A stretch of DNA of 42,977 bases from a virus: the IMG/VR virus record IMGVR_UViG_3300043434_001094, positions 1 through 42,977 of that record. The stretch is one strand, 5' to 3'. The number at the start of each line of letters is the position of its first letter. Positions within the stretch are counted from its first letter, which is position 1. Positions 145 to 42,977 of the stretch are shown piece by piece. The position numbers were made by a program, and so were the translations under genes. The notes beneath the pieces were generated by a model that made no database searches, was not told the DNA's origin, and worked only from the letters and a program-made list of their open reading frames with translations.

Positions 145-1279
145 CAGCGTCTGTTTTTTCGACATCATCTTCGTAGACATCGCCTAGCGTGGTATTGATG
201 AAGGTTTTCAGATCGGAGCGTTCGCCGTGCTTGGCTTTAGCAACGGCCGTGCGCCATTCACGTACGATGTTTGACCAGGTTGTTTGTGGACTGTAAATAG
301 CCCAAAAATTATCGAATGCAATGGATTTTGGCGGGCGTATGGGTTCGCCGGCGGCATTTTTGAACATGCCTTGTTCGTGGTCGTACCAGTTGCCTTGGCG
401 ATCAGTCCAGCGGCAACGCTGCCAAACGCTTAGGTATTCAGCTTGGGTGAATAAGGCGCCACAGTACGAACAGGCGTAAGCCGCCGTTTCTGGATCTTGG
501 TTAAACCATTTCAAGCCGTGGGCGCTGTTGGTATTGCCAAAATGCAACGGTTGGTAAGCGTCGCAATGTGGGCACGGTACATGACAGAGGTAGACAGCTT
601 CGGCTTCTTCGACGGCGCTAGCAATTTCGCAAAGGTATTTAAGTTTAGGCGTTGAACCAATGATGAGCTTACGGAAAGTTGCGCCTTCAGTACGCTTTTT
701 GGCGAGTTTGCGCGGGCTTCCTTCTTGATCGATGTCTTTGTCAAACGAGGAGACTTCGTCGATGATGGCAACGTCAACAGAAATACGGCGATAGTTTCGC
801 GCTGATGCACCACCTTTGACATACGCTACGCATCCCAGAAATTTTTTGTAGCTGTTGGTGTTATGTTGATGCTTTTTTTCAAGGTGCGGGAAAATAGGTT
901 TGATAGCTTTGACGTCTCGCAGCATCGGGTTGTATTCAGTTTCAACGAACTCTTGTGCATCGGAGTCAGTCGGTTGCCATAGCGCTTGGTTGCGTCGACG
1001 GTAGACAGTGAAGTAGGCCATGGCGGCCATCAGCATTTTCGTATAGCCGGTACGAGCGCTTTTTTTAACAGCAACTTCTTCAATGTCGTCGTTACCAAAT
1101 GCATCGAGGATGGCGACTTGTGGCGGATAGGCCTTCCAACGGCCTTCGGTGTAGCTGGATTCTGCCGATAGGTAGAAATGCTCGGCAGCCCATTGCGATA
1201 AGCGCATGGGTGGCTGAGTTTTAAGTACCCGCAGTCCTTTGCGGAAAGCTCGGTGTGCTCTAGTCTTCCAAGTCGACAT
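1..1279 (-). CDS. terL: Terminase large subunit, N-terminal part (GpA family)
   Basis: This is the ATPase half of the packaging motor, which cuts concatemeric DNA and pumps it through the portal. It belongs to the lambda GpA family. The N-terminus runs 'RKGLRVL' then 'YTEGRWKAYP', followed by the family's atypical Walker A (KSARTGYTK, about residues 73-81). Walker B is IIDEVSSFD (about 172-180), and two Cys pairs (CPHC about 236-239, CSYC about 270-273) look like a zinc ribbon. The ATG at 1279 is preferred over a later Met because the extra residues match the family's N-terminus. It overlaps the terS 3' end by 20 bp. The frame is open at base 1 and continues at 42833 on the circle, giving 678 residues in all. 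Confidence 0.93.
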   Translation of the reverse strand, partial: MSTWKTRAHRAFRKGLRVLKTQPPMRLSQWAAEHFYLSAESSYTEGRWKAYPPQVAILDAFGNDDIEEVAVKKSARTGYTKMLMAAMAYFTVYRRRNQALWQPTDSDAQEFVETEYNPMLRDVKAIKPIFPHLEKKHQHNTNSYKKFLGCVAYVKGGASARNYRRISVDVAIIDEVSSFDKDIDQEGSPRKLAKKRTEGATFRKLIIGSTPKLKYLCEIASAVEEAEAVYLCHVPCPHCDAYQPLHFGNTNSAHGLKWFNQDPETAAYACSYCGALFTQAEYLSVWQRCRWTDRQGNWYDHEQGMFKNAAGEPIRPPKSIAFDNFWAIYSPQTTWSNIVREWRTAVAKAKHGERSDLKTFINTTLGDVYEDDVEKTDADDLKKRAEDFPLQIVPRGGLILLAGVDVQKDRFEIVVYAFGRGEEMWT

Positions 1280-7589: not shown

Positions 7590-7723
7590 TCAAAATCCTC
7601 CACATGATCCCCCAGCCACGCCAGCCCTAAATCAACCGCGCAATACACCGCCAAACAAATCACCAGCCAAAACAACCCAAACAAGCTGGCAATCAACCAA
7701 AACACGCCCTTCAAGATCGTCAT
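7586..7723 (-). CDS. Small single-span membrane protein (45 aa)
   Basis: This is a 45-residue ORF with one long hydrophobic segment (about residues 7-32, 'FWLIASLFGLFWLVICLAV') and an acidic C-terminus (GDHVEDFE). The ATG at 7723 overlaps the stop of the LuxR-type gene (ATGA), and its TGA overlaps the GTG of the kinase (GTGA). Such tight coupling on both sides argues for a real gene. The function is unknown; small inner-membrane proteins in phage early operons can affect host physiology or exclusion. Confidence 0.6.
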   Translation of the reverse strand: MTILKGVFWLIASLFGLFWLVICLAVYCAVDLGLAWLGDHVEDFE

Positions 7724-8079
7724 TCGCGCACCTTGACCCGGCTGATCGTCACGCGCGGGGTGGGTCGCGCACGCATCAACACCTCGTCATCCAGGCTGAC
7801 CGCCTGAATCATCAACACCACGCACAACAACCGCGTGCTGATGCGTACCATGCCCCGTGCCACCGCCGATGAAACTGCGGCAACCCGGTGGTTGATCGAC
7901 AGCTCTTTAACCTGCAATTTTTCGTAGATAGCAGAACACTTGGCCTCAACCGTCTTGATCGAAATCGCCAACATGCGGGCAATGACCTTGTCCGGCTTGC
8001 CCTCACACATCAGCTTCAATACATCGGCCTCACGCTTCGTCAGGCCGTCGCTGTCAATGACATCTGCATGCAGATCCAT
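7720..8079 (-). CDS. LuxR/GerE-type HTH protein
   Basis: This 119-residue protein has a GerE/LuxR-type helix-turn-helix near its N-terminus (about residues 14-68: 'LTKREADVLKLM', 'PDKVIARMLAISIKTVEAK', 'YEKLQV'). A hydrophobic stretch ('LLCVVLMIQAV') and a basic tail follow. There is no receiver or autoinducer domain, so it would act as a stand-alone DNA-binding protein or membrane-tethered regulator. The ATG at 8079 has AGGGGG upstream and follows the cro stop by ten bases; longer in-frame starts lie inside cro. As the second gene of the early operon it is a candidate switch from early to later transcription, which is inference. Confidence 0.75.
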   Translation of the reverse strand: MDLHADVIDSDGLTKREADVLKLMCEGKPDKVIARMLAISIKTVEAKCSAIYEKLQVKELSINHRVAAVSSAVARGMVRISTRLLCVVLMIQAVSLDDEVLMRARPTPRVTISRVKVRE

Positions 8080-8089
8080 GGTGGTCCCC

Positions 8090-8320
8090 CTACTGTTGCA
8101 ATGATCCAAAAGGATCGATACTGCCAAACAGCTCAGGGCGCAATTCAGCAGCGGAGATTAAACCGCCAGATGCCGCCTCGAGACGACGGCATAACAAAGC
8201 GCTGGGTTTTCTATGACCACCAGCAATCTGCCAGAAATAGGCAACACTTGTCCCAAGCCGATTTGCAAGGGCTTCGCGCTCATCAGGCGATGTGTTTTTG
8301 AGAAAAGTTTTCATGTCCAT
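8090..8320 (-). CDS. cro: Cro/YdaS-like repressor
   Basis: This 76-residue HTH protein begins 'MDMKTFLKN', the usual opening of the YdaS/Cro-like family. The helix-turn-helix region is 'REALANRLGTSVAYFWQIAGG', and the family ending 'SAAELRPELFG' is present. It is transcribed divergently from cI across an operator region and should bind the same operators to favour lytic growth. The ATG at 8320 lies only six bases beyond a predicted -10 element (8327-8332), so the message may be leaderless; a second ATG at 8314 is possible. I see no Shine-Dalgarno. Confidence 0.8.
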   Translation of the reverse strand: MDMKTFLKNTSPDEREALANRLGTSVAYFWQIAGGHRKPSALLCRRLEAASGGLISAAELRPELFGSIDPFGSLQQ

Positions 8321-8326
8321 AAATTT

Positions 8327-8394
8327 ACTTTAGCTTATAGCTAAAGTTTGTGCAACTAAATCTTAGCGATATGCTTATTTATCAAAACGCTAAA
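8327..8394 (-). promoter_or_regulatory. Leftward early promoter with operator array O1, O2 and O5
   Basis: Reading leftward, TTGCAC (8355-8350), a 17-bp spacer and TAAAGT (8332-8327) form a promoter for cro. The perfect palindrome ACTTTAGC-N5-GCTAAAGT (8327-8347, O1) fills the spacer. Further sites of the form TTTAGC-N5-GCTAAA lie at 8362-8378 (CTTAGC-GATAT-GCTTAT, 9 of 12 core bases, O2) and 8378-8394 (TTTATC-AAAAC-GCTAAA, 11 of 12, O5). A possible rightward cI promoter is TTGTGC (8348-8353) with TATGCT (8370-8375), which would place O2 over its -10. CI and Cro are the expected ligands. Confidence 0.75.
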
Positions 8395-8412
8395 AAGGCG
8401 TTAAATAGCCTG

Positions 8413-9114
8413 ATGGAAATGACAAACGATGTGATAAGACGCGAAAACCTGTTGATTTTGCTGAAAGAAACCGGCGGCAAAAAAAAAGACTTAGCCGAAA
8501 AAGGCAACACTGCCCCGAGCTATATCAGCCAGATTTTGACTAAAAACGAAGTAAAACGACGCAGAATTGGCGATGATTTGGCACGTAGCCTAGAGACTGG
8601 CTTTGGAAAGCCCAGAGGGTGGATGGACGTTTGGCATCCATACGAATCAAAACAAACGCTTGGCCAATCGCTTGAGGTTAAAGAACCGGGTGGTCGCCAT
8701 CATTACGTGCCGGTTTTTGACATTAAGTTACAAGCGGGCATCACAGGCTTTGAAGTAGACATCCTTGCCGATGAAATTGAAACAATTTTTTTGCCAAACG
8801 CTTGGTTCATCAAGCGCCGAGTTAAACCAGACAGGCTTATCGGCTGTAAAATCATAGGGGATTCAATGGAACCCACATTGCACCCTGATGATATCGTCGT
8901 GATCAACCTGGAATCAACAACACCCAAAGACGGCAAAGTGTTTGCAATCAACTATGAAGGCCAGCTGGTCATTAAACGGATGATGCGCGATCAAGGTCTG
9001 TGGTGGTTGCAATCAGACAACCCAAATAAAACCAAACATCCAAACAAAGTATGCGAGGGTGATTTGTGCTTGATCATCGGCGAAGTAATCCACTGCCGCA
9101 CAGATACGCTATAA
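8413..9114 (+). CDS. cI: CI-like LexA/S24 phage repressor
   Basis: This protein should maintain lysogeny and self-cleave when RecA is activated. An N-terminal HTH (about residues 12-55) is followed by a linker with the probable Ala-Gly cleavage site (108-109, 'LQAGI'). The S24 protease domain has the catalytic Ser in GDSMEPT (Ser151) and the Lys in 'QLVIKRM' (Lys188). I chose ATG 8413 (233 residues; ATG 8419 is equally possible) because the open frame upstream runs through operators O2 and O5 and the likely cI promoter. It is followed by a strong terminator. Confidence 0.88.
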   Translation: MEMTNDVIRRENLLILLKETGGKKKDLAEKGNTAPSYISQILTKNEVKRRRIGDDLARSLETGFGKPRGWMDVWHPYESKQTLGQSLEVKEPGGRHHYVPVFDIKLQAGITGFEVDILADEIETIFLPNAWFIKRRVKPDRLIGCKIIGDSMEPTLHPDDIVVINLESTTPKDGKVFAINYEGQLVIKRMMRDQGLWWLQSDNPNKTKHPNKVCEGDLCLIIGEVIHCRTDTL

Positions 9115-9179: not shown

Positions 9180-9221
9180 TTTAGCGATGGGCTTGCATTT
9201 TATTTAGCAAGCGGCTAAAGT
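9180..9221 (+). promoter_or_regulatory. Rightward promoter with CI/Cro operators O3 and O4
   Basis: TTGCAT (9193-9198), a 17-bp spacer and TAAAGT (9216-9221) form a rightward promoter. O4 (TTTAGC-AAGCG-GCTAAA, 9203-9219) is perfect in both arms and sits between -35 and -10. O3 (TTTAGC-GATGG-GCTTGC, 9180-9196) overlaps the -35. The distance from -35 to the operator (4 bp) and the -10 sequence are the same as at the cro promoter. CI should therefore silence both directions in the lysogen. Confidence 0.75.
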
Positions 9222-35510: not shown

Positions 35511-35720
35511 TTACTTTTTTGCTAAACACTCCAAACAGAATTGCACGACATACGGCGCATCGGTAGCAGATGACGCAGAACGGTCGGCGAGATATTTACG
35601 CATCACGCGATCAGTAATGCCCAATTGATCGGCCGCTTTGCGTTGGCTCAGACCTGATTTAGCAATGAGTTCGCGTAAATAGGCCGGGTCCGGGTTGTAT
35701 TGGCTGCTGTCTGGTTTCAT
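35511..35720 (-). CDS. Small XRE-type HTH protein (69 aa)
   Basis: This 69-residue protein has a clear helix-turn-helix: 'LRELIAKSGLSQRKAADQLG' then 'ITDRVMRKYLADRS'. It is the last gene of the accessory operon and overlaps the previous gene (ATGA). It could regulate the island promoters or the late operon that follows, which is inference. The size fits small phage Cro-like proteins. Confidence 0.75.
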   Translation of the reverse strand: MKPDSSQYNPDPAYLRELIAKSGLSQRKAADQLGITDRVMRKYLADRSASSATDAPYVVQFCLECLAKK

Positions 35721-36250
35721 CGGCCCAGCGCCTCCAGTTTGATAGTGTTGGCAAGTTGTTCGGGCTGCTGTTGCATCCAGATAGCGAGCTGTCTATCACC
35801 CTCGGTTGTAGCCAGTTGATCCTGTACGGCAGACAAAAAAGATAGGGTCAGAGCTGGCGATAATGTCAGCGCCCGCAAGGCGCGCAAAATGCCTTTGTCA
35901 TCGACGGCATGTAGCTCAATGACCAGGCGTTGATCAGGGTTGTCGATGCTGTACAACTGGCGGTCATCTGCGGGAATGACACGGGCGTCAAAGGGTGCAT
36001 CAAAGGTAAATAGCCGGCGGCCATCTTTGCCGTAGAAAATGAACAACCACAGCAAAGCCCCGTTTTGATACAAAAAGCCACCGGTAATTAGGCCATTTCT
36101 GAAGGCCTGCTCTTCGGCGCTGGTCATTCTTGACAGCATGACTAACAGTCTATTACCACTGCTGCGCAGAAAATCCGCTACGGCGCCGTCTTGTTGAGGA
36201 TATTGCAGCGGGTACGGTTGACCGCGCGATAGAATAACAGGGTCATTCAT
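35717..36250 (-). CDS. Hypothetical protein of accessory island (177 aa)
   Basis: This 177-residue protein is not recognised. It has a helical N-terminal part ('DGAVADFLRSSGNRLLVMLS'), a central aromatic, strand-rich region ('GGFLYQNGALLWLFIFYG') and a helical end ('LSFLSAVQDQLATTEGDRQ'). No membrane span is certain. ATG 36250 overlaps the end of the ParB-like gene, so it is coupled to that gene and may function with it. Confidence 0.62.
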   Translation of the reverse strand: MNDPVILSRGQPYPLQYPQQDGAVADFLRSSGNRLLVMLSRMTSAEEQAFRNGLITGGFLYQNGALLWLFIFYGKDGRRLFTFDAPFDARVIPADDRQLYSIDNPDQRLVIELHAVDDKGILRALRALTLSPALTLSFLSAVQDQLATTEGDRQLAIWMQQQPEQLANTIKLEALGR

Positions 36251-36779
36251 AATGTGGCTCCCAAGCTGGTGAATAATCGTGTTTGACGAATAAATCAGGC
36301 ATGCCTGAGTTTTGTTTGAGCCGCAAAACTTCGTCAGCATCCATACCCAGGTTTTCGGCAATTTCAAAATCATGCATGCCCAGCGTGACCAGGTCGGCAA
36401 CAATGTTGCTCATTTGGTTGATTTGATGGGTACCACGGGCGCGGTTGAAGCGGATGGTTGCACTCATCAACTCGCTGACGTCAGCATCCAGAATCACGAC
36501 TGGCACGAATTCCATTTTGAAATGCTTGGCGGCCAGGTGGCGATGAAAGCCGTCGACGATCATGTAACTGGTATCGCTTTCTTTGATGACGACGATCGGA
36601 AAGCAAAAGCCGCTTTTTTTGATGTTGAGCTTGAGCAGATCCAGTTCGGGTTTGGCAACAGCGTTAGGGTTCCAGGGATTGGGTTTTAAATACTCGAGAC
36701 GCACCAATTCTGGCATTTTGATTGGAATGTCAGTGTTGCCGAATAAATCGACTTGATCAGATGTCTTTCCACTTTTCAT
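36243..36779 (-). CDS. ParB/IbrB-like nuclease-domain protein
   Basis: This 178-residue protein has a ParB N-terminal-type domain: 'ELVRLEYLKPNPWNPNAV', 'FCFPIVVIKESDTSYMIVDG', and 'FHRHLAAKHF' with the family's G-F-H-R core. A Helix-rich end with an HTH-like segment ('HDFEIAENLGMDADEVLRLK') follows. It comes right after a PAPS-reductase-like gene, the IbrA/IbrB order, so it is probably the IbrB partner. ATG 36779 with GAGGGG upstream is chosen. The biochemical role of such pairs is not settled. Confidence 0.8.
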   Translation of the reverse strand: MKSGKTSDQVDLFGNTDIPIKMPELVRLEYLKPNPWNPNAVAKPELDLLKLNIKKSGFCFPIVVIKESDTSYMIVDGFHRHLAAKHFKMEFVPVVILDADVSELMSATIRFNRARGTHQINQMSNIVADLVTLGMHDFEIAENLGMDADEVLRLKQNSGMPDLFVKHDYSPAWEPHYE

Positions 36780-37992
36780 AAAGCCCCTCGATTTTGTTTT
36801 GCATTTTGTTGGAGTAGCCAAAGCCGTATTTTTTGAACACAAAGTCGCGTTTGATGATCGCTTCGGCTAAGGCTTCCCAGGTAATAAAGTATTTTTGTTT
36901 CAGGCCAGTTTCAGCCATGACTTTGTTGCGGTCTTTGCGGCTGTCCTGGATATACACCGATTTCGGGATGTTTTCCTTTTGTTCGTAATGATGCCGGTGG
37001 TACCAGAACACGATCTCGAATTTTTCCTCGAAAATCTTGCGCGCGTCTTCCGGCAAAGATGCCATTAGCACCTTGGTATATTCGCGCCAGGTCAGATTGT
37101 CGGGTTTTTTAACCTTGCCGCTATTGATGCGGGTATGGTTGTAAATCTTGCCGAAGTTTGCGCCCTCAACGCGGGTGACCATGCGATTCCAGGTAGCGGG
37201 TTCAATCACACACCATTGATGCAGTGTTTTCGACTGCTCTTCACCAAATGCAAAACAGGTGCGTTGCTCGTGTGGCGGAATGCCCATTTTCCACATTGCG
37301 TCATAGACGCGGTTGTAATCTAGCTGATTGGCTGCGTAATAGTGCCAAATATCGGCGATTTTCCAATCGTGAATCGGCAGGCAAATCCAGGTTCGTGGTG
37401 TGCGGCCGTTGACATAGCGGTAGGTATGCGGGTTCTTCTTGTCCCGGTTTTTCATGGTGTGGACATTCATCAACCGGCCGTAGCTTTCATCATCACGCAT
37501 GCCGATAAAATTGATGATGGTTTGCGCGCCGGTTTTATCGCATAACGCCTCGCCCATACGAGTGATGGTCCATTCATTGGTGGCACGGCTTTGGTAATAC
37601 GGGGCCAGCCAATCGGGCAGATTGTCTTCATGGATCACGTAAGGCATATCTGGCATGTCGCGTGACCATGGTTGCTCATCTTTGCCCCAGTATTTGAAAT
37701 ACCTCTGATAAACGCTGCTGGCGTTGTTTTCAATCTCCGCCAGGCACAGCCAATACGGCTCAATTTCTGGCCTGTCCATTTGGTAGCGGGTGTAACGTGC
37801 GGTTTCCTCGAAAATGATTTCCAGATCGGCAAAGACGGTTTTAACCGGCAGGCGGTTGAGCTGTCTGGCGACATCGATCACCAGCTCGAGCAAGACGCCG
37901 GAATCCTTGCCGCCCGAAAACGAGACATAGAAATCATCGTGGGTGGTGATGGCTTCTTCAATGCGGCTTTTGGCCGCTTCAAGCACGTTCAT
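36757..37992 (-). CDS. IbrA-like PAPS reductase-family protein (DUF3440)
   Basis: The 411-residue protein has the PP-loop 'FSGGKDSGVLLEL' (Ser26-Ser31), used by PAPS reductases and related ATP-pyrophosphatases to adenylate a substrate. Family features of IbrA proteins follow: 'ETARYTRYQMDRPEIEPYW', 'NFIGMRDDESYGRL', 'TWICLPIHDWKIADIWHYYA' and 'GIPPHEQRTCFAFGEE'. A true sulfate-reduction role is unlikely in this context; regulatory or nucleic-acid modification roles are suspected. It overlaps both neighbours. Confidence 0.85.
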   Translation of the reverse strand: MNVLEAAKSRIEEAITTHDDFYVSFSGGKDSGVLLELVIDVARQLNRLPVKTVFADLEIIFEETARYTRYQMDRPEIEPYWLCLAEIENNASSVYQRYFKYWGKDEQPWSRDMPDMPYVIHEDNLPDWLAPYYQSRATNEWTITRMGEALCDKTGAQTIINFIGMRDDESYGRLMNVHTMKNRDKKNPHTYRYVNGRTPRTWICLPIHDWKIADIWHYYAANQLDYNRVYDAMWKMGIPPHEQRTCFAFGEEQSKTLHQWCVIEPATWNRMVTRVEGANFGKIYNHTRINSGKVKKPDNLTWREYTKVLMASLPEDARKIFEEKFEIVFWYHRHHYEQKENIPKSVYIQDSRKDRNKVMAETGLKQKYFITWEALAEAIIKRDFVFKKYGFGYSNKMQNKIEGLYEKWKDI

Positions 37993-38453
37993 CGTTTTAT
38001 GTCCTTGACGTGCCAGGTGTAGCGGCCGCGTTTGGATTTTTCAATAAAACCCAACTTGGCTAACACGGGCGAACTGTCGCCGGTGCAGAGTGCCTTGATG
38101 GTTTCGGCGTCGGTGTCTTGTTCAACGATCTTGATACGGGCTTCGATCAGTCGGCGATAAATACCGGTACCGCGACAGTCTTTTTGCATGAAACCGTAGT
38201 TGAGCAAAGCAAACTTTTTGTCGAGGTGGCTGATGTCGATGGCGCCAAAGCCGACGACTTCATTGTTAATGATCGCCAGTGCCCAAATCATGTCTTCGTT
38301 ATCATACACGGGCTCGCCCAGCGATTCGGCCACTTCACGGCTGGCGAACCATTTGCCCATTAGTGCCCAGAATTCTGGGGCATCGTTTTTGGATGTCGCC
38401 ATCCAGATAACGCATTCGCCTTTTGGGGTCATAAATTTGTTGAGTGCTTTCAT
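37989..38453 (-). CDS. GNAT-like acetyltransferase-fold protein
   Basis: This 154-residue protein has the GNAT order: a strand 'IIWALAIINNEVVGFGAIDI'-like segment (about residues 55-75), 'FALLNYGFMQKDCRGTGIYR' giving the acetyl-CoA loop (R-G-T-G), and a final 'LAKLGFIEKS'. It resembles the acetyltransferase-like genes that accompany IbrA/IbrB pairs. The substrate is unknown. ATG 38453 has AGGAG upstream and is preferred to an earlier in-frame ATG at 38525, which lies in the previous gene. Confidence 0.75.
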   Translation of the reverse strand: MKALNKFMTPKGECVIWMATSKNDAPEFWALMGKWFASREVAESLGEPVYDNEDMIWALAIINNEVVGFGAIDISHLDKKFALLNYGFMQKDCRGTGIYRRLIEARIKIVEQDTDAETIKALCTGDSSPVLAKLGFIEKSKRGRYTWHVKDIKR

Positions 38454-38470
38454 GGCTGCTCTCCTAAATG

Positions 38471-38495
38471 GCAGGGTACGCAGCACGTACCCTGC
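38471..38495 (-). other. Perfect 10-bp hairpin between accessory genes
   Basis: GCAGGGTACG (38471-38480) and CGTACCCTGC (38486-38495) form an exact stem with a five-base loop. It lies between the 168-residue gene and the GNAT-like gene. There is no long T-run on the minus strand, so it may be an mRNA-processing or stability element more than a terminator. The next gene's AGGAG follows within 10 bases. Confidence 0.55.
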
Positions 38496-38503
38496 TGTGT
38501 CAT

Positions 38504-39010
38504 TTAACGACTGGTTACTGCCCATCTAAAACCGGGGATTTCGTCATGCTCATCATCGATGGCAATCAAGCTTTCATCGCAATCGGTATAACCCAAGGCC
38601 TTGGCTTCTTGTTTTGATGCGGCAATCAATTCGCCTTGGTATTTAACAACCCAACAATGTTGAATGTTTTTCAATGCTTCTTTGGTGCATCTAAAAAACG
38701 TTTTGATGGTGTGATCGGCTTCTTCTTCAAAAACTGCGGCTTTAAAGTTACGGGTGAATGAAATTTTTGTATTAGTAATACTTATTTCTTCTTCAACAAC
38801 ACTTATAAGATCATCATTTTGATCCCAAGAAATAGGTTGCTGACCAACGCCAAAATCAATAGTAACTAAATATTTCCCTAATCTTGAGTTTTTCTCAGAA
38901 AGTCTAATATGTGCTACTTTATGTGCAGCAAATCCTTTTCCATAACGGTCCAATACGACTTTATGTTTTTTTGAATCGAATTCGCTTATTTTTATAGTTT
39001 TTGTGTTCAT
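38504..39010 (-). CDS. Hypothetical protein of accessory island (168 aa)
   Basis: This 168-residue protein is unrecognised. It is strand-rich in the first half ('KISEFDSKKHKVVLDRYG', 'KYLVTIDFGVGQQPISW') and has two Cys residues in 'FFRCTKEAL' and 'IQHCWVVKY'. The gene looks clearly AT-richer than its neighbours, which suggests separate acquisition. ATG 39010 is chosen because the promoter's -10 (39083-39078) lies between it and the earlier in-frame start. It is the first gene of the second island operon. Confidence 0.6.
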   Translation of the reverse strand: MNTKTIKISEFDSKKHKVVLDRYGKGFAAHKVAHIRLSEKNSRLGKYLVTIDFGVGQQPISWDQNDDLISVVEEEISITNTKISFTRNFKAAVFEEEADHTIKTFFRCTKEALKNIQHCWVVKYQGELIAASKQEAKALGYTDCDESLIAIDDEHDEIPGFRWAVTSR

Positions 39011-39077
39011 GACTGGCCTCGCTTTCGCTGGTATTCGCCTTGCATCCTGCCGGCTTAATGATGTCCTGTTGCTGATA

Positions 39078-39106
39078 ATGATAGGTACTTTGTTCCTAAT
39101 TGTCAA
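39078..39106 (-). promoter_or_regulatory. Near-consensus promoter with inverted-repeat operator (copy 2)
   Basis: Reading leftward: TTGACA (39106-39101), 17-bp spacer, TATCAT (39083-39078). The spacer holds TAGGAAC-AAA-GTACCTA (39098-39082), an inverted repeat with one mismatch. The same design recurs at 41799-41827. The -35 starts eight bases after the helicase stop. A promoter this strong with an operator inside the spacer is probably repressed. Confidence 0.82.
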
Positions 39107-39113
39107 GCTGATT

Positions 39114-40574
39114 TCATAATTCCATCACTATTTTTCGCAACTTTTCTTTGCTGCTGGTTTTCACGCGATCCACGTCGGCTTTAAATTTGGCCACGGCATT
39201 GCTTTTACTCCACAGCGCATTCTGGATGCGCTCATCAATGCCAGCGTCGCTACAAATATCGATGTAAACGCATTTGTGGGTTTGACCGATGCGATGATTG
39301 CGATCTTCAGCCTGAATGCGTTCGGCGTATTTGAAACCATTGTTGTAAAAAATGGCGTAGCGCGCCTCATTGAGCGTTAGTCCGTGACCACCGCAACTCG
39401 GAGTCGCGACGAAAAAGCGCGCGTTGGCGCGAAATCTGGTCAGTTGTTCAGCCCGTTGTCGTTCGTTGTAGTCGCCATAAAACAACGCCACGCTGTCAGT
39501 GCCAAACAGCGCGTTCAGCTTGGCGGCGATATGCTGAATGTCGTAGCGGTATTTGGCCCAAATAATGATTTTTTCGTTTACTGGGATGCTGGTGACGGTG
39601 TCGATTAGCACATCCAGGCGCTCGTGATCGATCTCGATGAACTCCTCGGTCAATCGGCCTGAGATATCCGTATAGCGTCTATTCCAAAATCCGCAGGTGA
39701 TTTGTTGCAAAGCGGTAAATAACCGAAACAGGGTGTAGGACGTGAAATCATCCGGGTTTTCAGTCAGGATTTCTTCCTTAGCGGCTTCATACCAACGGCG
39801 TTGGACTGAGTTCATGTCTACATAGCGTGTTTCGTAAATTTTGGCTGGTAGATCCAGGCACTCGTCTTTAGTGACCTGGTAAACGTAGGGCTTGATTTTG
39901 GCCGCGATCCATTCGGTATTATGACTGCGCACGATCAATCCTTTGTAGCGTTCCGAGTATTCCAGATGGTTGCGGCTAAACGAATAAAACGAGCGGTAAC
40001 CGAGGATTTTTGGCGATAAAAACCGCATTTGCGCATACAGATCGACGATGCCTTGACTGATCGGTGTGCCAGTCAAAATCAAGCGATAACGGGCGCGCTC
40101 GGCCATCACTGTAATGCGCTGGGTACGCATCGACTTGTGGCCTTTGATGTAGCTGGATTCGTCTACGATGACCATGCTGGTATCGTCGATCAGTCGGTTG
40201 ACGGTCAGTGCTACCCGATTACTGGCACTCATAGACTCGATGCCCACCACGTACCAAAAACAATCGGTCAGGTTGCGGCTATTGGTTTTATCATCAAAAG
40301 TGCAGATATCGGCGTCGGTGTGCTCGGTGTGCTTGAGGATCTCATGACGAATAGTCTGTTTGAGGGCTACCGGACAGAACCACACCACTCGGCTGATTTT
40401 TGTTTGCCGCAACCTGGCCAGCTCGATAGCAGTGCGGCTTTTTCCTGTGCCCATTTCCATGAACAGCGCGCCGACACGCGTCGGCAACTGCTTGGCAACG
40501 GCTTCTTGTTGGTGACGTAATAACGGCGTAGTGGCGACAATCGCCCGGCGTTCAATCGCGCAGGTCATCGTCAA
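39114..40574 (-). CDS. SNF2-family helicase
   Basis: This 486-residue SF2 translocase has Walker A MGTGKS (41-46), motif II DESSYIK, motif III LTGTPIS, and motif VI 'QAEDRNHRIGQ', the SNF2 signature. Such proteins remodel DNA-protein complexes or fork DNA; phage forms may counter host DNA-binding proteins or aid replication. The Met at 40574 or 40568 begins within the preceding gene's end, giving a 17- to 23-base overlap. It is the second gene of the first island operon. Confidence 0.88.
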   Translation of the reverse strand: MTMTCAIERRAIVATTPLLRHQQEAVAKQLPTRVGALFMEMGTGKSRTAIELARLRQTKISRVVWFCPVALKQTIRHEILKHTEHTDADICTFDDKTNSRNLTDCFWYVVGIESMSASNRVALTVNRLIDDTSMVIVDESSYIKGHKSMRTQRITVMAERARYRLILTGTPISQGIVDLYAQMRFLSPKILGYRSFYSFSRNHLEYSERYKGLIVRSHNTEWIAAKIKPYVYQVTKDECLDLPAKIYETRYVDMNSVQRRWYEAAKEEILTENPDDFTSYTLFRLFTALQQITCGFWNRRYTDISGRLTEEFIEIDHERLDVLIDTVTSIPVNEKIIIWAKYRYDIQHIAAKLNALFGTDSVALFYGDYNERQRAEQLTRFRANARFFVATPSCGGHGLTLNEARYAIFYNNGFKYAERIQAEDRNHRIGQTHKCVYIDICSDAGIDERIQNALWSKSNAVAKFKADVDRVKTSSKEKLRKIVMEL

Positions 40575-41742
40575 CCTCTACATCGGAAGGCACTTCCAGC
40601 TCTACCGGTTCTCCGTCGTCGCCCCGCTTATCTGGTTCCTCGTAGCGCACGTCGACCACTAGCGCCGCGTCTTTGGCCTGTTTGGCAGCTGCCATGGCTT
40701 CGCGGGCGGCGGCGGTGATGGAGAAGCCATTGACCTCGGCAAAATCCAATACCTGTTCAAATTGCTCGATGGCGACGGAAATATGCGGCTTGGCATAACG
40801 GGCGGTCGGCAGGCGCTTGGCGACTTTCCAATAGTCTTCGTCTTTTCGCTCCCAACGGATGCATAAACGGCCTTGTTCTTTACCTGATGTAAACAGGGCA
40901 ATCCAGCGGGTTTGGCATGCTTCGAAATAGCCGTGAATCATGGCATTGCGAATGTCGGCATTGAACTGGCGAACGATGTAGCCGTGGGCCAGCAGAAAAT
41001 GGCCGATCTCGGCAGCGCGATCGAACGTCGTACCGTCCAGGGCTGAAACCAGGCGCTGCCAACGATTGTTATCCCACCGAAAATGGTATTTGTGCATGAT
41101 CAGCCGGAAATTTTCGCGCTTTTCAGGAAATGAAACGCGTACATATTGACCGTTAATCGTGATTTCCGCCACGGTTTCTGTCACCGGATTGGCCGGCCTT
41201 ACGGTGGCCTCTAGCTTTGCTTCGTCGATAATGGCTTTTTGTTCCGGTTTTACCTCGGCAGCAGGTGGATTGGCGACAAATAACTCGCGCAGGATGAAAC
41301 CGATTTTGCTGTCGCGGCGGTCTATCCACCAGGAAGCAGAGGTTTGTTGCTTGAGCAGGTCAATGGCGTAATAGGCGTGCGGATGGTCAACCGGCAATGG
41401 CTCTTGATGCCATCCTGCCGAGCCCCAGTAGGCATCGATCATCATGTGGTCCAGTTCGCCGGCGAGCGACTGGCGGATGGTTTCCAGTTTCTGGGCTCGG
41501 ATTGTCTCAGCCCAGGCGATTTGTTTGTCGCTGCCGGTTAGCTCTGGCAATCCTGCGGCCTGGTTTTGCTCAGCCGCTTTGGCGTTTTCGGTTTGGCGTT
41601 GTTTGTCTTGGCAGTCTGAGCAGATAAATCCTTGTGACTCGGCCCATTCCGCTTTACGGTCGGCGAGTTTTCGGTTTTGCTCGATGAACATGATGGTGTG
41701 GGTGCAACCTTCGGTTGCGCAGTGGGCGTAGGCTTTGGCCAT
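40552..41742 (-). CDS. Zinc-ribbon protein paired with SNF2 helicase (396 aa)
   Basis: The N-terminus has a CX4C...CX2C zinc motif (Cys8, Cys13, Cys41, Cys44). A segment 'ELTGSDKQIAWAETIRAQKL' follows, known to me from uncharacterised bacterial and phage proteins. A middle domain ('EITINGQYVRVSFPEKRENF', 'YHFRWDNNRWQRLV') looks like a small DNA-binding module and faintly recalls the HARP domain of eukaryotic SMARCAL1. The acidic C-terminus ends 'DVEVDDDLRD'. It is co-transcribed with and overlaps the SNF2 gene, so the two may act as one complex. Confidence 0.65.
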   Translation of the reverse strand: MAKAYAHCATEGCTHTIMFIEQNRKLADRKAEWAESQGFICSDCQDKQRQTENAKAAEQNQAAGLPELTGSDKQIAWAETIRAQKLETIRQSLAGELDHMMIDAYWGSAGWHQEPLPVDHPHAYYAIDLLKQQTSASWWIDRRDSKIGFILRELFVANPPAAEVKPEQKAIIDEAKLEATVRPANPVTETVAEITINGQYVRVSFPEKRENFRLIMHKYHFRWDNNRWQRLVSALDGTTFDRAAEIGHFLLAHGYIVRQFNADIRNAMIHGYFEACQTRWIALFTSGKEQGRLCIRWERKDEDYWKVAKRLPTARYAKPHISVAIEQFEQVLDFAEVNGFSITAAAREAMAAAKQAKDAALVVDVRYEEPDKRGDDGEPVELEVPSDVEVDDDLRD

Positions 41743-41798
41743 GGTCTTGTCCTCTTAACGATGTTAATGGAAGGCGCCTCCCTTTCGGTGGCTGGCCA

Positions 41799-41827
41799 AT
41801 AATAGGTATTTTGTTCCTATTTGTCAA
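41799..41827 (-). promoter_or_regulatory. Near-consensus promoter with inverted-repeat operator (copy 1)
   Basis: Reading leftward: TTGACA (41827-41822), 17-bp spacer, TATTAT (41804-41799). The spacer holds a perfect AATAGG...CCTATT inverted repeat (41821-41801) containing TAGGAACAAAATACCTA. Compared with copy 2, most of the operator is identical. It begins four bases after the Mor-like gene stops and drives the 396-residue and SNF2 genes, with a leader of about 50 nt that includes a GGCGCC palindrome. Confidence 0.85.
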
Positions 41828-41830
41828 GCC

Positions 41831-42079
41831 TTACGGACCTAAAATCCGGTAAATCGTGCGTTTGCTGAAGCGGTACCGTCGGGCCAGTTGTTCAACGCTG
41901 GCTCCAGCAGCATGCAAACTGCGAATCTCGGCGTTGCGGGTGTGGTAGTCGCAGGTGGGGACATACAGCCGCTCGCCACCGAAGGTACTGATCAAGGCAT
42001 AAACGATGTCGGCGGCTTTTTGATCGTCATTGATCACCGATGACACGACGCGTTGCATTTCGTGGATGATGCCGGTCAT
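41831..42079 (-). CDS. Mor-like transcription activator
   Basis: This 82-residue protein matches the Mor family of phage Mu: 'ALISTFGGERLYVP', then 'RNAEIRSLHAAGASVEQLAR' and the HTH 'RYRFSKRTIYRIL'. Mu Mor activates the middle promoter as a dimer bound to an inverted repeat. Here it follows terL with an ATGA overlap, at the end of the early operon, so it could turn on a later operon such as that starting at 35.4 kb; that target is inference. Confidence 0.8.
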   Translation of the reverse strand: MTGIIHEMQRVVSSVINDDQKAADIVYALISTFGGERLYVPTCDYHTRNAEIRSLHAAGASVEQLARRYRFSKRTIYRILGP

Positions 42080-42977
42080 AGCAAAGCCGAACTCCGTTTT
42101 GGTTGTTTGGTTTTATAGTTTGGGATGGTTGTGCGGATAAGCGTGTCTGAAGTTCGTGTTACTGTGTCAATCGATGAATCAAACAAATCATTTTGCGCAG
42201 GTTGCACAATTTTTTCTAAACGATCCCATTCACTTTGAGTTTTTCGATGCAAGGCAATTTTATGAGCACAAAATAATGTCATGACAGTACAGTCAAGAGC
42301 TTCATTACGCGCATGGGCACGTCTAGGCACCCAACTACTTATCGTGCCGCGTGATGTTTGTTTAAGCACCCTAACCTCATTTGTAATGTGCTCAAAAAAT
42401 ATGTTTGGTAGGTGTTTTGAAATATGCAAGCACCCTGGTCCAGAATCCTTAACTTGCAAACGGTTATGAATTAAATCTTTAGCAGTGTCAGTGCCGATAA
42501 GATAAAGCTTTACGCCAAATTTAATGATGCGATCTCTAATAGTGACATCCTGCATCTTGCCACGACTGCTGATGGGTTGTCCTGATGTGCTAGATCCCTT
42601 AGTTGCGTAAACTTTAGGCGGATAAAGTGTGTTTTTGCTCCAACCACTTGCTGTGCGTCGATCTCGTGCATAAATATAAGCTTGATGAGTCCAATGGCCG
42701 CCGGTATCAATAGCTACATGTTCAATGCTTAATGTTCCACCTGCACTGTGTGGATATCGGTAAAGCAAATAATCATCTAATTTGTCCCATTCAGTTTGTA
42801 CAGCAGGATTAGCTTCAATAACCTGGTAATCAACGGTCCACATTTCTTCTCCACGGCCAAAGGCATAGACCACTATTTCAAAACGGTCTTTTTGCACATC
42901 GACACCAGCTAATAAAATCAATCCACCACGCGGAACAATTTGTAATGGAAAGTCTTCAGATCGTTTTTTGAGGTCGT
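42076..42977 (-). CDS. terL: Terminase large subunit, C-terminal part
   Basis: This is the nuclease half of TerL, continuing the frame that runs off base 1. It contains 'LLAGVDVQKDRFEIVVYAFG' with the first catalytic Asp, 'HVAIDTGGHWTHQAYIYARD', 'GTDTAKDLIHNRL' and the final 'NEALDCTVM' Asp, the usual GpA-type nuclease layout. Bases 42834-42977 duplicate the window start. The part nearest the stop looks AT-richer than the N-terminal half, which may reflect recombination. Confidence 0.92.
   Translation of the reverse strand, partial: DLKKRSEDFPLQIVPRGGLILLAGVDVQKDRFEIVVYAFGRGEEMWTVDYQVIEANPAVQTEWDKLDDYLLYRYPHSAGGTLSIEHVAIDTGGHWTHQAYIYARDRRTASGWSKNTLYPPKVYATKGSSTSGQPISSRGKMQDVTIRDRIIKFGVKLYLIGTDTAKDLIHNRLQVKDSGPGCLHISKHLPNIFFEHITNEVRVLKQTSRGTISSWVPRRAHARNEALDCTVMTLFCAHKIALHRKTQSEWDRLEKIVQPAQNDLFDSSIDTVTRTSDTLIRTTIPNYKTKQPKRSSALL
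42834..42977. repeat. Terminal direct repeat, right copy
   Basis: This is identical to 1-144 except at 42960, where A replaces C. The match ends exactly at the window edge, as expected when a circular sequence is written with a short overlap. Confidence 0.9.

Follow-up and report, generated by a model that had tools for sequence, protein, structure and literature searches.

An Aca1 homologue and a putative two-operon regulon with paired leader hairpins in a temperate phage

Aca1 is one of the small helix-turn-helix proteins (60-80 amino acids) associated with the anti-CRISPR (acr) genes of phages, and its dimers bind inverted repeats in acr promoters, blocking RNA polymerase (PMC9410881, PMC9410906). 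The aca1 gene has been used as a marker for finding anti-CRISPR genes (PMC7913775). Members of another protein family, Aca2, are about 125 amino acids long and carry a DUF1870 domain (PMC9410906); the solved complex of Aca2 with RNA (PMC11239489) provides a precedent for an Aca protein that binds RNA. Here, we analyse the IMG/VR virus record IMGVR_UViG_3300043434_001094 (positions 1 to 42,977; this whole stretch of 42,977 nucleotides is referred to as the window), which derives from a temperate phage with a CI repressor and an integrase, and in which two promoters with Aca1-type operators precede two operons, the first of them ending with a gene for an Aca1 homologue.

Promoter 1 (39078-39106, minus strand) is composed of TTGACA, a spacer of 17 bp and TATCAT, with the Aca1-type operator TAGGAACAAAGTACCTA (39082-39098) inside the spacer, while promoter 2 (41799-41827, minus strand) has TTGACA, 17 bp and TATTAT, with TAGGAACAAAATACCTA (41803-41819) in the same position. 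The spacers of both contain the inverted repeat TAGG-N9-CCTA. The original prediction, made from the letters of the window, had described this architecture correctly, but had spoken of two identical cassettes; the 29-mers of the two sites (TTGACAATTAGGAACAAAGTACCTATCAT and TTGACAAATAGGAACAAAATACCTATTAT) are alike at 26 of 29 bases, and are thus nearly identical. Each site was said to begin within ten bases of a gene end, and indeed promoter 1 lies 7 bases past the end of the SNF2 gene (39114) and promoter 2 lies 3 bases past the end of the Mor-like gene (41831). In the whole window the pattern TTGACA-N16..18-TATNAT matches these two places and no other, compared with a mean of 0.06 matches, and never two, in 100 dinucleotide shuffles of the window. 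Both sites are also the top two promoter-like matches between 35 and 43 kb (11/12 each). A third copy of the operator, which the prediction had likewise failed to find, is absent throughout the window when up to three mismatches are allowed (shuffles gave 0).

The regulator that had been suggested for these promoters is an XRE-family protein of 69 amino acids (35511-35720, minus strand; phrog_3865), encoded, as predicted, by the last of the six genes downstream of promoter 1. Judged by its sequence, this protein is an Aca1 homologue: it matches phrog_3865 with an E-value of 3.6e-29, has the helix-turn-helix and the length of the Aca1 family, and its sequence matches in the PDB are Aca1 chains only (7c0g, 7fa3 and 7vjn). 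Of the 127 phage records matched by tblastn, 126 are from Pseudomonas; identities are 56-60% among the best listed matches, and in DMS3, D3112, MP29, Etesian and others the matches adjoin acr genes. As is usual for Aca1 regulators, the gene stands at the 3' end of the operon below the promoter at 39106, and the TAGG-N9-CCTA inverted repeat lies within the core promoter. A DUF1870 domain was not matched in the 69 residues, so that the protein is not a member of the Aca2 family. By homology, the 35511 protein is expected to bind DNA.

The operator itself is found far outside this phage. A blastn search with the cassette region as query gave no match among phage records. The acr promoters of DMS3, D3112 and Etesian carry TAGGCACAATGTGCCTA in the same operator frame, and TAGGCACAATGTGCCTA is included in the Aca1 probe of PMC9410881. 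A motif search, which the original prediction had suggested as a check, was carried out blindly on 2.9 million viral contigs: the strict pattern, i.e. the promoter-operator pattern of the window, was found in three contigs from two distinct phages, all of which (3/3) encode Aca1 beside the site. With a looser pattern 41 sites at 40 loci were recovered, and 18 of these sites (18/41) are followed on the same strand by Aca1 at a distance of at most 1.5 kb. In the reverse direction, the Aca1 loci (1.19 Mb) contain 75 matches to TAGG-N9-CCTA versus 11 for the same-composition control, mostly 250-1050 bp upstream of aca1, and genes from Acinetobacter and Moraxella are included among them. On these sequence comparisons, the assignment of the two sites in the window as Aca1 operators within strong sigma-70 promoters is well supported.

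Operon 1 encodes a 168-amino-acid protein, a GNAT acetyltransferase, an IbrA-like protein, an IbrB-like protein, a 177-amino-acid protein and Aca1, the six genes being tightly packed or overlapping, and operon 2 encodes the 40552 protein (phrog_16123) and an SNF2 helicase. Both are located between TerL and the Mor-like gene on one side and the head-tail adaptor, portal and head genes on the other. Both sites recur at the corresponding positions in a diverged phage (L049; TerL 58%, Aca1 63%), where TAGGTATAACATACCTA follows the Mor-like gene and TAGGAATAATACACCTA follows SNF2. The order in L049 is TerL, Mor-like gene, site, 40552 homologue, SNF2, site, other cargo, IbrA, IbrB, 177-amino-acid protein and Aca1, and the cargo of its operon 1 differs from that of the window. 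In L047 the site after SNF2 is kept as the variant AAGGAAATAATTTCCTA. A single site in L048 drives 40552-SNF2-GNAT-IbrA-IbrB-Aca1 as one operon, oriented opposite to the adjoining portal and terminase genes, and L004 has divergent sites, one for the Aca1 operon and the other for a PAPS-reductase operon. These layouts indicate that control by Aca1 beyond its own operon would not be unique to the window. These relatives support the view that the "private regulon" of the original prediction is an Aca1 regulon over two transcription units; what the prediction had missed is that the regulator is the known Aca1, that the layout recurs in another phage and that the cassettes extend into paired leader hairpins. 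Aca1, its operator and its autoregulation were known before, while the combination of one Aca1 with two operons of this cargo is, as far as checked, new.

Taken as a whole, the observations are very probably best explained by Aca1 from operon 1 repressing both operons through the two operators in the promoter spacers. Naive phage DNA would enter without Aca1, so that both operons would be transcribed at once, early after entry. Aca1, as the product of the last gene of operon 1, would build up as the operon is expressed, and its dimer would bind TAGG-N9-CCTA between the -35 and -10 elements of both promoters. The bound dimer would exclude RNA polymerase and thereby limit both operons, including its own synthesis. 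The original prediction had foreseen a feedback loop in which a distinct repressor, with the XRE protein encoded at 35511 as a good candidate, acts on both operons, and this gains support from the Aca1 homology, the operators elsewhere and the blind scan.

CI (or the Cro-like protein encoded at 8090-8320) might control both promoters instead, which would make the two operons ordinary immunity-controlled morons: this temperate phage has an integrase and a cI gene (8350-9114), and a position within the promoter spacer is typical for the operators of CI. The cI gene is flanked, however, by TTTAGC-N5-GCTAAA inverted repeats (8329-8345 and 9204-9220), the probable CI operators, which do not match TAGG-N9-CCTA, just as the prediction had noted; together with the tracking of TAGG-N9-CCTA with aca1 in unrelated phages and prophages, this makes control by CI highly improbable. 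Nor is it at all likely that the two are late or middle promoters activated by the Mor-like protein, whose gene (41831-42079) lies immediately upstream of promoter 2: a perfect -35 and a near-consensus -10 element 17 bp apart should not need an activator, the repeat is inside the spacer and not upstream of the -35 element, and the operator accompanies aca1 in phages with other gene contexts. These points stand against the Mor/late-activator domain of the adjoining gene product and the presence of a Mor-like gene at the same place in L049.

Several observations do weigh against control by Aca1. Of the 41 loose-pattern sites, 23 lack a same-strand downstream Aca1, as might be the case if a host repressor (e.g. 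of the LexA or XRE type) used the sites and Aca1 were incidental. The strict pattern finds Aca1-bearing phages only, and the sites recur with aca1 across Pseudomonas, Acinetobacter and Moraxella, so that a host repressor is a very unlikely explanation. Furthermore, the half-site here is TAGGWAC/T compared with TAGGCAC in Pseudomonas, no known Acr family was matched among the cargo proteins, and 15 loci with Aca1 homologues, mostly weaker ones, have no recognisable TAGG-N9-CCTA site and may use another operator. Known acr neighbours have been found for just 15% of Aca-like genes (PMC9410906). Loci with Aca1 homologues at about 80-107 bits and no recognisable TAGG-N9-CCTA site include L090-L093, L095-L097, L100, L102, L103, L106, L108 and L120.

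Downstream of the operators, each leader in the window holds two hairpins (all on the minus strand). In operon 1, hairpin 1a (39037-39054, GCC-G-GCA-GGA-TGC-AA-GGC) is followed by hairpin 1b (39017-39031, CC-A-GC-GAAA-GC-GA-GG), the 3' arm of which is the Shine-Dalgarno sequence, its final GG being 6 nucleotides before the ATG; in operon 2, hairpin 2a (41776-41792, GCC-A-CC-GAAA-GG-GA-GGC) is followed by hairpin 2b (41751-41770, CC-A-TTAAC-ATC-GTTAA-GA-GG), whose 3' arm is likewise the Shine-Dalgarno sequence, here with the GG 8 nucleotides before the ATG. The corresponding motif after the operator, GCC-N-stem-loop-stem'-NN-GGC with a 1x2 internal loop, is present in 38 of the 43 unique Aca1 leaders that could be resolved, compared with a mean of 0.3 for mononucleotide shuffles, 2 for the antisense strand and 3.3% for random 70-mers. 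Changes in the inner stem are compensated (GCC/GGC, AGC/GCT, GCA/TGC, TCAA/TTGA and others), with a covariation score of 0.386 versus 0.093 in shuffles (0/500 shuffles) and 99.4% of the cells paired versus 24-38% when slid; because the sequences for the covariation analysis were picked by their pairing pattern, the unselected count of 38/43 is the fairer test. The covarying hairpin is also carried by the Pseudomonas acr-aca1 leaders. All six leaders (6/6) of the window's clade have two tandem hairpins, the second of the form CC-A-stem-loop-stem'-GA-GG with the Shine-Dalgarno sequence as its 3' arm, and the strict form of this second motif has three matches in the 43-kb window, all within the two leaders. 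A like second hairpin is found 5 and 8 nucleotides before an ATG at two other Aca1 loci (L079 and L098). Where this cargo occurs in the absence of Aca1 (L126, L127, L130-L132 and L140), the region upstream of it has no hairpin or one chance-like match, indicating that it goes with aca1 and not with the cargo. At L010 (site at 1175-1203, minus strand) and L013 (site at 7821-7849, plus strand) the operator pattern is followed by an Aca1-type leader hairpin; near these sites no Aca1 gene was found in the DNA examined, and the loci possibly hold a diverged or truncated aca. An Rfam search of the leader region gave no match, and a limited literature search found no description of an Aca1 leader hairpin or of RNA binding by Aca1, so that the conserved hairpin is new as far as checked.

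Translation is probably regulated as well, perhaps by Aca1 itself or by another factor, through the conserved hairpins that begin the mRNA and, in this clade, also cover the Shine-Dalgarno sequence. There is close to an even chance that the hairpins simply stabilise the mRNA at its 5' end or tune translation by their structure, and do not serve as binding sites for a regulator. Stems at the 5' end are known to slow mRNA decay, in most leaders the first hairpin begins near the predicted start of the transcript, and the folding energies are modest; on the other hand, a stabiliser needs neither a conserved 1x2 internal loop nor an invariant GCC/GGC closing stem, and several lineages use the CC-A...GA-GG frame again in the second hairpin, which covers the Shine-Dalgarno sequence. 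We tentatively consider it possible that Aca1, like Aca2, is a dual DNA and RNA repressor. It would then act on promoters via TAGG-N9-CCTA and on translation via the CC-A...GA-GG hairpins, both those within the leader and those that cover the Shine-Dalgarno sequence; in this clade, its anti-defence regulon would comprise two operons, with the SNF2-IbrA-IbrB module among their genes. The case for the hairpins is weakened by their individual free energies, mostly ordinary in single-sequence folding, and by the PAPS-reductase operon of L004, which has the operator and no hairpin. A covariance model made without the window's clade, which is too short for genome-wide significance and can be used for rank only, places 1a first in the window (39034-39057) with an E-value of 0.16, and 2a only 45th.

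The cargo of the two operons consists of candidate anti-defence or DNA-processing genes, a role that would follow from their control by Aca1. All of them are encoded on the minus strand. The first gene of operon 1 (38504-39010, 168 amino acids) has no confident family match and a GC content of 36% versus 51% for the window, and is likely a recent acquisition. It is followed by the genes for the GNAT acetyltransferase (37989-38525), the IbrA-like protein with a PAPS reductase domain and DUF3440 (36757-37992), the IbrB-like protein with a ParB_N domain (36243-36842) and the 177-amino-acid protein (35717-36250, phrog_12389), the last of which is encoded directly upstream of aca1 in three phages. 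The predicted fold of the 177-amino-acid protein is alpha/beta and fairly confident (predicted local distance difference test score, pLDDT, of 82), and gave no match against the PDB. Distant relatives of this protein are encoded in L123 and L132, both without Aca1. Operon 2 starts with the gene for the 40552 protein (40552-41742, 396 amino acids, function not assigned), followed by that for the SNF2-family helicase (39114-40574, phrog_62). About 17 diverse viral contigs have the order 40552-SNF2-IbrA-(GNAT)-IbrB, and copies including L127, L128, L130-L135 and L137-L140 were compared with positions 36243-41742 of the window; among the module contigs examined, Aca1 is found only in the window and the L046-L049 group. 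Two copies of the module without Aca1 have other palindromic promoters, upstream of 9986 in L132 (TATAACGACACGTTATA) and upstream of 10001 in L135 (ACCACGAAATTCGTGGT), suggesting that other autorepressors play the role of Aca1 there.

As for the remainder of the record, TerL matches at both ends (1-1258 and 42076-42977) indicate that the contig is probably circularly permuted. The gene for a LuxR/sigma-factor-like helix-turn-helix protein (7720-8127, phrog_3282) overlaps the Cro-like gene where the leftward early operon begins.

Searches for acr genes based on Aca1 normally cover the genes directly next to it. In the window, the operator singles out a second operon at a distance of 3-6 kb; scans for TAGG-N9-CCTA promoters therefore extend guilt-by-association beyond the neighbours, and the widespread, uncharacterised module of the 40552 protein, SNF2 helicase, IbrA and IbrB joins the list of anti-defence candidates. 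The well-studied Pseudomonas acr-aca1 operons also have the hairpin, so that an established experimental system is at hand for asking whether Aca1 acts on RNA too.

In regard to dual control, the arrangement resembles that of Aca2 in combining an inverted repeat in the promoter with stem-loops in the leader, one of them over the ribosome-binding site. Stem-loops are reported for the acr-aca2 leader. The likeness is in the way of working and not in membership, since the 69-amino-acid protein of the window belongs to the Aca1 family and is unrelated to Aca2. A strong shared promoter and regulatory motif that marks several genes of one virus is also seen in the anti-defence gene sets of archaeal viruses defined by their regulatory sequence (PMC11065993), which differ in the viruses and promoters being archaeal and in using other regulators. 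Closest are the acr-aca1 operons of Pseudomonas phages (the DMS3, D3112 and JBD30 group), with which the window shares Aca1 as the last gene, TAGG-N9-CCTA overlapping the core promoter, the insertion among head genes and the leader hairpin, GCC-A-GCC-loop-GGC-GA-GGC in those phages. DMS3 has a second upstream repeat, whereas each promoter of the window has a single one. The known operons are single units of small acr genes, whereas in the window two operons share the operator and the cargo includes large enzymes and no recognisable acr gene.
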